A stretch of DNA of 64,000 nt. Source: Moheibacter sediminis. Lineage in GTDB: Bacteria; Bacteroidota; Bacteroidia; Flavobacteriales; Weeksellaceae. A program made the position numbers and the translations under genes. The notes below the pieces were generated by a model that saw only the letters and a program-made list of their open reading frames with translations, was not told the DNA's origin and ran no database searches. The DNA lies in assembly GCF_900176425.1 (NCBI RefSeq), contig NZ_FWXS01000006.1:62001-126000 (forward strand), in the 5' to 3' direction. Numbering within the stretch: the first letter of the stretch is position 1; each line of letters opens with the position of its first letter. Positions 29,282 through 34,528 of the stretch are shown here, piece by piece.

Positions 29282-29758
29282 TCAAAACAACTCCATCGTT
29301 TTGATTCCTTTTTCCAATTCGAGTAAATATTTTTTTCGGTGCAGTCCTCCCGCATATCCCGTCAGGCTTCCGTCTTTTCCGATGACGCGATGGCATGGGA
29401 TAATAATCGAAATTGGATTTTTTCCATTGGCACTTGCTGCGGCACGAATTGTTTTTTCATCTCCTAAATCTTGTGCCAATTTCAGATAAGAAATTGTTTT
29501 ACCATATGGAATTTTCTGTAATTCGTTCCAAACTCTTGTTTGAAAATCAGTTCCTTTTGGTTTCAGCGGAACATCGAAAGTCCATTTTTTATGGTTGAAA
29601 TAAGCATCAAACTGCTCATTTAATTGAATGAAATGTTGCGGTAATTCTTCCGAAACCTCAGGTTCATCTTCTTTGAAATAAATCGAATGAATAAAATCTT
29701 CATCTCCTTTGATTTCGAGCCAGCCAATTTCTGTGTAATATTTTCCGGTAAAATTCAT
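29282..29758 (-). CDS. ogt: Methylated-DNA-protein-cysteine S-methyltransferase (Ogt/MGMT)
   Basis: Removes methyl groups from O6-methylguanine onto its own cysteine (suicide DNA repair). I start it at ATG 29758 (MNFTGKYYTEIGW), which gives the normal length of 158 residues. An upstream ATG at 29842 would run through the rimP leader region. Motifs: the helix-turn-helix region GTDFQTRVWNELQKIPYGKTISY, then ASANGKNP and the active site IIPCHRVIG, with Cys about 45 residues from the C-terminus. Convergent with DUF456. Confidence 0.93.
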   Translation of the reverse strand: MNFTGKYYTEIGWLEIKGDEDFIHSIYFKEDEPEVSEELPQHFIQLNEQFDAYFNHKKWTFDVPLKPKGTDFQTRVWNELQKIPYGKTISYLKLAQDLGDEKTIRAAASANGKNPISIIIPCHRVIGKDGSLTGYAGGLHRKKYLLELEKGIKTMELF

Positions 29759-29776
29759 CAATTCAAAAAGTTGTCG

Positions 29777-29784
29777 TATATTTG
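29777..29784 (+). promoter_or_regulatory. -7 element of the rimP-nusA-infB operon
   Basis: TATATTTG, exact TAnnTTTG match, about 60 nt upstream of rimP. Transcription would start near 29790, giving a roughly 50-nt leader that contains the short ORF and hairpin described next. Confidence 0.6.
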
Positions 29785-29808
29785 CAACGAATTTAAGGAG
29801 AAAAACCA

Positions 29809-29847
29809 ATGAAGAGAGCCCATAGCTCTCTTTTTTATTCATTATGA
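29809..29847 (+). CDS. Possible 12-codon leader peptide of rimP-nusA-infB
   Basis: ATG at 29809 opens the frame MKRAHSSLFYSL and ends in TGA at 29845-29847, which overlaps the rimP ATG (ATGA). A GGAG-like sequence (29797-29800) precedes it. The terminator-like hairpin lies inside this frame, so a translating ribosome would cover it. It may be spurious; the arrangement, not similarity, is the evidence. Confidence 0.35.
   Translation: MKRAHSSLFYSL
29813..29836 (+). terminator. Terminator-like hairpin (possible attenuator) directly before rimP
   Basis: Perfect 7-bp stem AGAGAGC / GCTCTCT with a 5-nt loop, followed by a run of T, ending 8 nt before the rimP start. No plus-strand gene upstream needs this terminator, and its promoter is only about 30 nt upstream. 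It thus looks like a regulatory attenuator of the operon. Confidence 0.6.
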
Positions 29848-30311
29848 ATCAACAATTAGTAAAACAGTTAATAGACGAAGCAGTTGCCGAGAATCCTGAA
29901 CTTTTTTTAGTAGAATGGAAAATCTCCGGCGACAATGCGATTGAGGTTCTGGTTGATGGAGACAAAGGTTTGTCAATCGATGAAATCGTTAGAATCAGTC
30001 GCCATGTAGAGCATAATCTGGACCGTGAAGAAGCAGATTTTTCACTGAATGTTTCATCTGCCGGAATAGGAAACCCACTGGCTTTACCGCGTCAATACCA
30101 GAAAAATATTGGCAGGATTTTGAAAGTTACTAAAACAGATGGCAGGAAAGAGATAGAAGGCGAATTAGTTTCAGCAGACGAGGAAAGCATCGTTTTGAAA
30201 TGGACTGCACGTGAACCCAAACCGGTAGGGAAAGGGAAACACGATGTGGAAAAACAAGAGAAAATAAATTATACAGAAATAAAAAAAGCAATTGTAAAAA
30301 TCACTTTTTAA
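29844..30311 (+). CDS. rimP: Ribosome maturation factor RimP
   Basis: Assists 30S subunit maturation. 155 residues with the family pattern: LFLVEWKISGDNAIEVLVDGDKG, then EIVRISRHVEHNLDREE and the conserved FSLNVSSAGIGNPL (PxSPG-like turn replaced by SSAGIG). First gene of the classic rimP-nusA-infB operon, 11 bp from nusA. Probably controlled by the leader hairpin. Confidence 0.93.
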   Translation: MNQQLVKQLIDEAVAENPELFLVEWKISGDNAIEVLVDGDKGLSIDEIVRISRHVEHNLDREEADFSLNVSSAGIGNPLALPRQYQKNIGRILKVTKTDGRKEIEGELVSADEESIVLKWTAREPKPVGKGKHDVEKQEKINYTEIKKAIVKITF

Positions 30312-30322
30312 ACTATACGAAA

Positions 30323-31558
30323 ATGGACAATATTGCATTGATCGAATCATTTGGTGATTTCAAAGATGAAAAAAACATAGACCGCATCACGCTCATGGCG
30401 ATTTTAGAAGAATCTCTTCAAAGCGTTTTGAGAAAAAAATACGGCTCAGACGATAATTTCGATATTATCGTAAATCCTGACAAAGGAGATTTAGAAATTT
30501 GGCACAACCGAATTGTGGTTGAAGATGGAATGTCTGAAGACGACAGCGCGGAAATTGAATTATCAGAAGCCCGTAAAATCGAGCCGGATTTTGAAATAGG
30601 CGAACAGGTTTCTGAGTCAATAGCTTTGATGGATTTAGGTCGTAGAGCGGTTTTGGCGTTGCGACAGAATTTGGTAGCCAAAGTAATGGAACATGACAAC
30701 GCGAATCTTTACGAAAGATTCAAAGACATGGAAGGGGAAATCGTTTCGGGTGAAATTCACCACATCCGTCACAAACACATTATTGTGATGGACGACGAAC
30801 AAAACGAAATGATTTTGCCAAAAGAAAACCAGATTCCTTCTGATTATTTCAGAAAAGGAGAATCGGTTCGTGCAGTTGTTGACGAAGTAAAATTGAAAGG
30901 AATTAAACCTCAAATTATTTTATCAAGAACTTCACCTAAATTTTTGGAAAAATTATTTGAACAAGAAATCCCTGAAATCTTTGACGGAATCATTACTATT
31001 AAAGGTTCAGTTCGAATTCCAGGTGAAAAAGCAAAAGTTGCAGTTGAATCTTATGATGACAGAATCGATCCGGTTGGAGCCTGTGTCGGAATGAAAGGTT
31101 CAAGAATTCACTCCATCGTGCGTGAATTGAAAAACGAAAACATAGACGTAATTAATTATACAAGCAATCTTCAGTTGTACGTAACACGTGCTTTGAGTCC
31201 TGCAAAAATCTCACGAATTGAAATCGACGAGAAAAACAGTAAAGTAACCGTGTATGTAAAACCGGAAGAAGTTTCCAAAGCAATCGGAAAGGGCGGGCAC
31301 AATGTGCGCTTGGCTGGAAAATTGTTAGGAATGGAAATTGACGTATTCCGTGATATACCACAAGACGAAGATGTTGAACTGGCAGAATTCTCTGATGAAA
31401 TCGATGCGTGGGTAATCGAAGCCTTCCAAAAAATTGGATTGGATACAGCCCGAAGCATTTTGGAACAAGATGTAAATGACCTGATTTCACGTACCGATTT
31501 AGAAGAAGAAACCATCCAGGATGTCATCAGAATATTGAGAGAAGAATTTGAGGAATAA
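30323..31558 (+). CDS. nusA: Transcription termination/antitermination factor NusA
   Basis: 411 residues: N-terminal RNA-polymerase-binding domain (1-125), S1 domain (GEIVSGEIHHIRHKHIIV, from about 135), then two KH domains. The GxxG loops are at CVGMKGSRIHSIV and AIGKGGHNVRLAGKLLG. It lacks the C-terminal AR1/AR2 repeats of E. coli, as usual outside Proteobacteria. Binds RNA polymerase and nascent RNA, and in other bacteria is linked to autoregulation of its own operon leader. Confidence 0.96.
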   Translation: MDNIALIESFGDFKDEKNIDRITLMAILEESLQSVLRKKYGSDDNFDIIVNPDKGDLEIWHNRIVVEDGMSEDDSAEIELSEARKIEPDFEIGEQVSESIALMDLGRRAVLALRQNLVAKVMEHDNANLYERFKDMEGEIVSGEIHHIRHKHIIVMDDEQNEMILPKENQIPSDYFRKGESVRAVVDEVKLKGIKPQIILSRTSPKFLEKLFEQEIPEIFDGIITIKGSVRIPGEKAKVAVESYDDRIDPVGACVGMKGSRIHSIVRELKNENIDVINYTSNLQLYVTRALSPAKISRIEIDEKNSKVTVYVKPEEVSKAIGKGGHNVRLAGKLLGMEIDVFRDIPQDEDVELAEFSDEIDAWVIEAFQKIGLDTARSILEQDVNDLISRTDLEEETIQDVIRILREEFEE

Positions 31559-31621: not shown

Positions 31622-34528
31622 ATGTCGGAAACGATAAGATTAAATAAAGTACTTAAAGAATTAAACATCTCCATCGATCGCGCAGTTGACTTTTTGAGCG
31701 AGAAAGGGGTTCAGGTTGAGCGTACGCCAAATACGAAAATCGACCAGGAAACCTATTCTGTTTTGATCAAAGAATTTCAATCCGATGCTAAGCAAAAAGC
31801 AGCATCAGAAGAAGTTGTCATCAATAAAATGCCAGATAGAAAACCTGAGCCGGTGAAAGAAGAGCCTGCTCCAAAACCAGTTGAGCCGGAAAAAATTACC
31901 GTGCCCAAAGTGGAATTGGAAGGTCCTAAAACCATTGGTAAAATTGATTTGGATCAATTCAATAAAAAACCGAAGCCTGCTGAGGCGGAAGTGAAAAAAG
32001 AAGTGGAAGCTCCAAAAGCTGAAGAGCCGAAAGCCGAAACGCCAAAAATTGAGACACCTAAAGTTGAAGTTCCGAAAGAAGAGCCAAAGCCTGAACCTAT
32101 ACCAGAGGTAAAGCCTGAACCAAAAGAAGAGCCAAAACCTGTGGTAGAAGTAGCGCCAACGCCAAAAATTGTTGAGCCTCCGAAGCAAGAAGAAACCAAA
32201 AAAGAGGAGCCGAAAAAGGAAGAACCTAAAAAGGAAGAGGTAAAACCTGCTGCTCAAACTCCTGAAGCTTCACAATCTACAGAGCCTGAAAAAATCAAAA
32301 CCCAATACCAAAAATTGGATGGGCCTAATTTTACAGGGAAAAAATTAGATTTGTCTGAATTTGAAAAAGACAAAAAACTTGCTGAAGAACGCAAAGAAAA
32401 ACAAAAGAAGGAAAACGAAAATAAAAAGAAACGCAAGAGAATCCGCAAGGATGTGAAGTTAGACGACAAACCTTCTGGCAACAATACAAATAATAACAAT
32501 AATCAGAATTCCGGAAACAGACCTCCTTACAATCCAAACAGACCAAATCAAAACAGACCGGGTCAAGGTGGTGGTGGAAATAACAACAATCGCCCTCCGG
32601 TAAGAAGACAACCTGCGGAATTAACAGATGAACAAGTTTCAAAACAAATCAAAGAAACTTTAGAAAAACTTACCAATAAAGGAGTTAAATCCAAAGCCTC
32701 TAAACACAGACGTGACAAAAGAAAAGAACGTCGTGAATATGAAGCCTTGGAACAAGAAGCCATGGACATGGACAAAACTTTACACGTAACAGAATTTGTT
32801 ACGGTAAATGAATTGGCCAGTTTGATGGATGTTGCGGTGACGGAAGTTATTTCTGCATGTATGTCATTGGGTATCATGGTGACCATGAATCAAAGATTAG
32901 AAGCAGATACCATTTTATTGGTAGCAGATGATTTTGGATTTGATGTTAAATTCAGCAATGTTGAGGAAGAAATTACCACAGAAGATGTAGTAGTAGATGC
33001 GCCGGAAGATTTGGTTCCGCGTGCACCGATCGTTACAGTAATGGGTCACGTTGACCATGGTAAAACTTCATTGTTGGACTACATCAGAAAGGCTAATGTA
33101 ATTGCGGGTGAATCCGGAGGGATTACTCAGCACATCGGTGCCTACAATGTAGAATTACCGAACGGACAGAGAATTGCATTTTTAGATACACCGGGACACG
33201 AGGCATTTACCGCGATGCGTGCGAGAGGTGCGCAGGTTACCGACATGGCGATAATCGTAATTGCCGCAGACGACCAGGTGATGCCGCAAACACGCGAGGC
33301 AATCAGCCATGCGCAGGCAGCTGAAGTTCCGCTGATATTTGCAATTAATAAAATTGACAAACCGGGAGCAAATCCTGAAAAAGTAAAAGAACAATTAGCC
33401 CAAATGAATTTGTTGGTTGAAGATTGGGGAGGAACCATTCAGTCTCAAGACATTTCAGCCAAACAAGGTCTTCATGTAGAAGAACTTTTGGAGAAAATAT
33501 TATTGGAAGCCGAAGTATTGGAACTGAAAGCCAATCCAAAAAGATTAGCAATCGGAACAGTTGTCGAAGCTGCTTTGGATAAAGGGAGAGGATACGTTTC
33601 AACCATCATTGTACAAAACGGAACGCTTAGAGTAGGAGACTATGTAGTAGCCGGAAGCAATCATGGAAAAGTACGTGCGATGTTGGACGAAAGAGGAAAT
33701 CAGGTGAAAGAAGCAGGTCCTTCTACACCGGTTACAATCTTAGGTTTGGACGGCGCACCGACTGCAGGTGATAAGTTCAGAGTATTTGAAGACGAAAGGG
33801 AAGCAAAACAAATTGCAACCAAACGTGAGCAATTACAAAGAGAGCAGACAATCCGTACGCAGAAGCACATTACGTTGGATGAAATCGGAAGACGTATTGC
33901 TTTAGGAGATTTCCAGGAATTGAACATTATATTGAAAGGAGACGTGGATGGTTCGGTAGAAGCATTGACAGATTCATTACAAAAATTATCGACGGAAGAA
34001 ATTCACATCAACATTTTACATAAAGGAGTAGGTCCGATTACGGAATCCGATGTTTTGTTGGCGAGCGCTTCCGATGCGATTGTGATTGGATTCAACGTAC
34101 GTCCGGGAACATCTGCCAAAGAAATCGCAGACCGCGAAGAAATCGAAATTAGAAACTACTCCATTATCTATGATGCCATCAATGATGTGAAAGAAGCAAT
34201 GGAGGGAATGTTGTCACCTGAATTGAAAGAACAAATTACAGGAAACATCGAAATCCGAGAAACTTTCAAAGTTTCAAAAGTGGGAACGATTGCAGGTTGT
34301 ATGGTTTTAGACGGAAAAGTAAGCCGAAATTCAAAAATCAGACTGATCAGAGATGGAGTTGTAATTCTAGATGGAGAATTGGCGAGTTTGAAACGATTCA
34401 AAGACGATGTGAAAGAAGTTTCAAAAGGATACGAATGTGGATTGAACATCAAAAACTATAATGACATTCAAGTAGGAGATATAATCGAAGCTTACGAAAC
34501 AGTAGAAGTCAAAAAGAAATTAAAGTAA
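31622..34528 (+). CDS. infB: Translation initiation factor IF-2
   Basis: 968 residues. The N-terminal helical domain ([20 protein letters not shown]) is followed by a long low-complexity region rich in Pro, Lys and Glu (about 60-230) and an Asn/Gly/Arg-rich stretch (about 285-320). Then come the GTPase domain, with P-loop GHVDHGKTS (about 476), DTPGHEAF and NKIDKP, and the C-terminal beta barrel and fMet-tRNA-binding domains. It delivers initiator tRNA to the 30S subunit. It may be expressed both with nusA and from its own promoter. A strong terminator follows. Confidence 0.97.

Follow-up and report, generated by a model that had tools for sequence, protein, structure and literature searches.

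The window, by which we mean the whole stretch of 64,000 nucleotides of Moheibacter sediminis DNA that was analyzed, contains the genes rimP (29844-30311; Pfam RimP_N and DUF150_C), nusA (30323-31558; Pfam NusA_N, KH_5 and KH_2) and infB, encoding IF2 (31622-34528; Pfam IF-2, GTP_EFTU and IF2_N), all on the plus strand. The closest named relative of this member of the Weeksellaceae is Moheibacter lacus, whose RimP is 81% identical. Eighty-five bases separate this operon from its divergent left neighbor, an ogt/MGMT gene on the minus strand (29282-29758; Pfam Methyltransf_1N and DNA_binding_1). The longest open reading frame of the latter extends from 29282 to 29842, and its start would fall within the rimP leader; Pfam coverage suggests that the real start is located at 29758. 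Since ogt/MGMT is encoded on the other strand, a terminator in the rimP leader is not needed by the left neighbor, in agreement with an earlier annotation of this DNA made without database searches (termed the sequence-only reading here), which had stated that no other gene requires it.

The leader contains the promoter box TATATTTG (29777-29784, plus strand). The sequence-only reading had noticed it as a consensus promoter element, and it matches the flavobacterial -7 box of the TAnnTTTG type published for Flavobacterium (PMC9723704). Using the spacing given in that work, with the box at -12 to -5, transcription would start at 29789. A -33 TTG element at the usual spacing of 19-21 nt from the box was not seen in the window.

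Downstream of the box lies a terminator-type hairpin that we regard as a putative attenuator (29812-29836, plus strand), identified by its fold, its conservation and compensatory changes. It consists of the arms AAGAGAGC (29812-29819) and GCTCTCTT (29825-29832), the loop CCATA and a run of six T residues (29831-29836). Here, the sequence-only reading had described a perfect 7-bp hairpin located 8 nt before rimP; hairpin and T run are indeed present, but the stem comprises eight perfect pairs (nine counting a G-U), and 7 nt separate the T run from rimP; in everything of consequence that description is correct. The hairpin is located ~10-11 nt before the rimP ATG (29844). The distance from the presumed transcription start to the stem is ~23 nt, which places the hairpin at +24 to +44.

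A lenient terminator scan of the leader region detected two candidates versus 2.2 expected, that is, no excess over chance. With strict criteria, six terminators were found in the whole 64-kb window on both strands; in the control, simulated Markov sequence yielded zero to two per strand. Four of the other strict terminators are located 19-24 nt past gene ends and one lies close to the window edge, so that the hairpin in the rimP leader is the only one just 5' of a gene start. The exact arm pattern occurs a single time in the 64 kb (0 expected), and the leader RNA has a folding z-score of -2.8 relative to shuffles. Rfam searches revealed no family in the window at the gathering threshold, and with E-values of up to 10 only implausible families were reported at the leaders. 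The decisive evidence for the hairpin is comparative.

Conservation and operon specificity of the leader hairpin

All 86 related rimP loci that were fetched first carry an upstream hairpin with a T run (85 counted by script, one by eye only), and the script detected a TAnnTTTG box 5' of the hairpin in 85 of them; the loci are phylogenetically related, so these counts are not independent. Of 39 additional genomes from across Bacteroidota, nearly all likewise have a hairpin 5' of rimP. Most Flavobacteriaceae have the form GAGGGGAC-N3..7-GTCCCCTC-TTTTT, with nearly invariant stems and with loops that are free to vary in letters and length. In the clade of the window the 5' arm is GAGAGC or GAGGGC and the 3' arm GCTCTC. 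Moheibacter lacus and Empedobacter combine GAGGGC with GCTCTC and thus retain GGGC in the 5' arm alone, compared to GGGGAC/GTCCCC in Flavobacteriaceae. The sequence-only reading had proposed to check both stem and short reading frame for conservation in relatives: the stem is conserved, but the reading frame is not (see below).

Chryseobacterium-type Weeksellaceae, a type that was assigned by reading, have a different hairpin at the same place, AAGGC-N-TTC-GCAA-GAA-N-GCCTTTTTT. An outer pairing UUUAC(G)/(C)GUAAA that would enclose the terminator is possible in 13 loci and looks conserved in this lineage. An outer stem around the T run was considered as a general feature and rejected; it is clear in the Chryseobacterium type, partly present in some others (by eye) and not general. 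One genome was observed to contain two rimP-nusA-infB operons, each with its own leader hairpin, which may be due to contamination (2%).

Covariation was analyzed in an alignment of 48 sequences, in which 97.9% of the pair cells are standard pairs, a value somewhat biased in favor of the structure since the alignment was fitted to it. In the same alignment two-sided changes are present at five of the eight stem pairs, and every slid control was far lower. The distance between box and hairpin is nearly constant across the loci (26.5 ± 2.4 nt), while the distance between hairpin and ATG is 23 ± 30 nt, with a range of 9-198. This combination of a fixed spacing to the box and a variable spacing to the start codon shows that the element is tied to the promoter and not to the ribosome binding site.

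For the analysis of operon specificity a covariance model of box and hairpin, blind to gene content, was generated from 44 Flavobacteriaceae leaders. Training was restricted to this family because a first all-family alignment had set the 5' arm wrongly in Weeksellaceae. The model was used to search 246 Flavobacteriales genomes, and reverse-strand palindrome copies were excluded from the matches. Among the matches listed, 119 of 137 share the strand of rimP and lie directly 5' of it; they come from 118 genomes. The genome of the window itself yielded exactly one match, at 29777-29840. Leaders of Chryseobacterium-type Weeksellaceae escape the model, and matches in reduced endosymbiont-like genomes are weak; the one inspected lies far from nusA. 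Genomes in which rimP is encoded apart from nusA were not noticed among the matches listed (by eye).

Proposed attenuation and its effector

Conservation and covariation of the stem, its link to the promoter, its specificity for this operon and its retention with nusA in genomes without rimP together lend strong support to attenuation, which the sequence-only reading had considered attractive for an operon encoding NusA. We think it probable that the hairpin is a minimal promoter-proximal transcription attenuator through which NusA limits the expression of its own operon. RNA polymerase would start at ~29789 and, after ~23 nt, transcribe the intrinsic terminator hairpin with its U run. A fraction of the transcripts would end near 29836-29838, and the remainder would continue into rimP-nusA-infB. 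NusA stimulates intrinsic termination. Since it is encoded in the operon, its level would set the extent of termination in the leader: high NusA would result in more termination and low NusA in relief, allowing autoregulation without an RNA switch. Both the termination itself and its partial extent, as well as the role of NusA as effector, are inferred from the sequences.

The short distance between start and stem narrows down where control can act. Approximately 14 nt of RNA remain inside the polymerase, and with a stem beginning ~23 nt past the start little but the 5' arm would be exposed before the hairpin forms. Neither the alignments nor the single-sequence folds revealed a conserved antiterminator or a general alternative structure, and a mutually exclusive antiterminator of the leader-peptide type (trp/his) was not found in the leaders or in the fold of the window. 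With neither space for an aptamer or an antiterminator nor any conserved one, regulation has to target the terminating complex directly; NusA, as a product of the operon, would be the obvious candidate. If NusA reads the GGG...CCC core directly, the species of the window, which lacks this core, would be an exception.

The hairpin might instead stabilize the mRNA as a constitutive 5' stem, or mark where a leader RNA of ~48 nt with a function of its own ends, in both cases without regulated termination. Such a role would fit the Chryseobacterium type, in which the mRNA 5' end UUUACG pairs with CGUAAA past the T run and would thereby be sealed. This outer pairing is missing from the fold of the window, and the part that is kept universally is the stem with its T run at a fixed distance from the promoter, which is the signature of termination; we therefore regard a purely structural role as unlikely.

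The same attenuator could respond to RimP, or to the state of 30S assembly, and not to NusA. The rimP gene is the first of the operon, and feedback by RimP was considered by Naville and Gautheret (PMC2965389). Genomes without rimP speak against it. In four genomes from four families (G010, G014, G016 and G044) rimP was found neither with PF02576 nor with a nine-sequence profile at E-values of up to 1, the sole trace in the four being one broken stretch at chance level in G016. All four have a hairpin with a T run directly 5' of nusA: GGAGGGGAC...GTCCCC in G044, GGGGAC...GTCCC in G016, GGAGC...GCTCC in G014 and GGGCC...GGCCC in G010. A tRNA gene is located upstream in G044 and in G010, and the case of G010 is ambiguous, since its hairpin could be the terminator of that tRNA. 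The absence of rimP could partly be caused by assembly gaps in G010, G014 and G044, which are drafts at 92-95%; it is firmest in G016, which is a single contig and 99% complete. Retention of the hairpin with nusA in genomes without rimP favors NusA over RimP and points to NusA as the probable partner of the element, so that we consider an effector role of RimP or of 30S assembly very unlikely. The reduced endosymbiont-like genomes also have no rimP, and in the five of them with visible upstream sequence the hairpin was not seen 5' of nusA (by eye).

Relation to described leaders of nusA operons

In 2010 Naville and Gautheret introduced the rimP-leader, which they called the most ubiquitous attenuator; its stem is of the form GGGc...gCCC, and NusA was suspected to be the effector (PMC2965389). 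The rimP-leader resembles the element of the window in its operon, its place in the 5' UTR and its short terminator hairpin with a U run; the G-rich 5' arm is also present in most relatives of the window, and both are devoid of an antiterminator or a larger conserved element (PMC2965389). In contrast, the GGGc...gCCC core is absent from the stem of the window (GAGAGC/GCTCTC), and the leader of the window, with the hairpin ~26 nt past the TAnnTTTG box, is far shorter than that of B. subtilis (~180 nt). Since the stem of the window lacks the core although its relatives have it, we classify it as a variant of the rimP-leader and not as a plain member. The best reading is that the element represents the flavobacterial form of the rimP-leader, with a stem that would have diverged in the genus. 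Bacteroidetes are not mentioned in the main text of the 2010 description (PMC2965389).

A structured element 5' of rimP, conserved in Flavobacteriaceae, is listed for Flavobacterium psychrophilum by Guerin et al. (2021; PMC9723704). As listed there, it shares with the hairpin of the window the position upstream of rimP and the lack of an Rfam hit, and judging from this position it is presumably the same element as the hairpin of the window. According to a review that cites Mondal et al. (2016), NusA of B. subtilis is reported to limit its own expression by termination in the leader (PMC12288461). As in the window, the operon encoding NusA has an intrinsic terminator in its 5' leader; NusA dependence is shown for B. 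subtilis, whereas for the window we infer it. For E. coli, repression of the operon by NusA is cited in PMC2965389. The E. coli metY-rimP-nusA-infB operon is similar to that of the window in having terminators (t1, t2) 5' of rimP and a regulation linked to NusA, but several promoters are present there, together with RNase III sites and the metY tRNA gene (PMC6511841), compared to just one box and one hairpin in the leader of the window.

A demonstration of NusA autoregulation beyond E. coli and B. subtilis was not found in the literature searched, and as far as we found, this kind of switch has barely been described before in Bacteroidota. New here, as far as our searches show, are the phylum-wide extent of the element, its fixed distance to the promoter and its retention with nusA without rimP. 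The comparison opens NusA autoregulation to tests throughout a phylum, in a leader that, at ~48 nt, is too short for an RNA switch. Where rimP seems to have been lost, the hairpin is kept with nusA, which distinguishes between NusA and RimP as effectors, a point left undecided in the description of the rimP-leader. In addition, the leader would provide flavobacterial genetics with a compact natural reporter of NusA activity.

The short reading frame and remaining alternatives

As the sequence-only reading had described, an ATG at 29809 opens a frame of 12 codons, MKRAHSSLFYSL (29809-29847, plus strand), whose TGA (29845-29847) overlaps the ATG of rimP. Comparison of the frames shows that this open reading frame is not conserved, and it is probably not functional. 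An ATG near the stem is lacking in 36 of 94 distinct leaders. In the others the frame stops before rimP (30), overlaps rimP out of frame (13), continues in the rimP frame with no stop (9) or ends in an ATGA overlap as in the window (6). Even in Moheibacter and its nearest relatives the length is 5, 6, 12, 22 or 41 codons. A conserved mini-ORF was ruled out by this analysis, and a conserved short ORF with regulatory codons, as in a leader-peptide attenuator of the trp/his type, was not found.

The sequence-only reading had also raised translation-coupled control, in which ribosomes on the 12-codon frame decide whether the hairpin forms. The ATG lies directly 5' of the stem. In 33 of 65 cases an ATG is found no more than 9 nt away from the stem, versus 11.3 expected from shuffled spacers, an excess that is inflated by shared ancestry. 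Four Moheibacter genomes have AAGGAG (29795-29800 in the window) 8 nt before the ATG (29795-29811 for both), while GGAG is found at this place in 0 of 47 genes of the window; we give this observation little weight, and Shine-Dalgarno sites are normally not used by Bacteroidia ribosomes. Frame, length, stop and peptide vary even within the genus, and the base differences inspected in Chryseobacterium-type leaders all alter the amino acid. Taken together with the leaders that lack an ATG, this leaves translational coupling with very little probability. That the hairpin, which resembles an ordinary terminator in form, insulates the operon against readthrough from upstream genes is hardly credible, since the promoter box of the operon lies 5' of it and in 61 of 75 loci the neighbor upstream is encoded on the other strand.

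For Moheibacter, a special form of coupling can be envisaged in which the AAGGAG before the ATG at 29809 would link the state of the 30S subunit to the supply of NusA and IF2. Only ribosomes that read Shine-Dalgarno sequences, for instance those lacking bS21, would initiate there, and by occupying the 5' arm they would block termination; rpsU of F. johnsoniae is reportedly a published case of such reading by ribosomes lacking bS21. We consider this scenario extremely improbable. In one Flavobacterium-like genus, an ATG that is in frame with rimP is present at the stem of many leaders, so that gene callers may extend RimP by ~12 residues.
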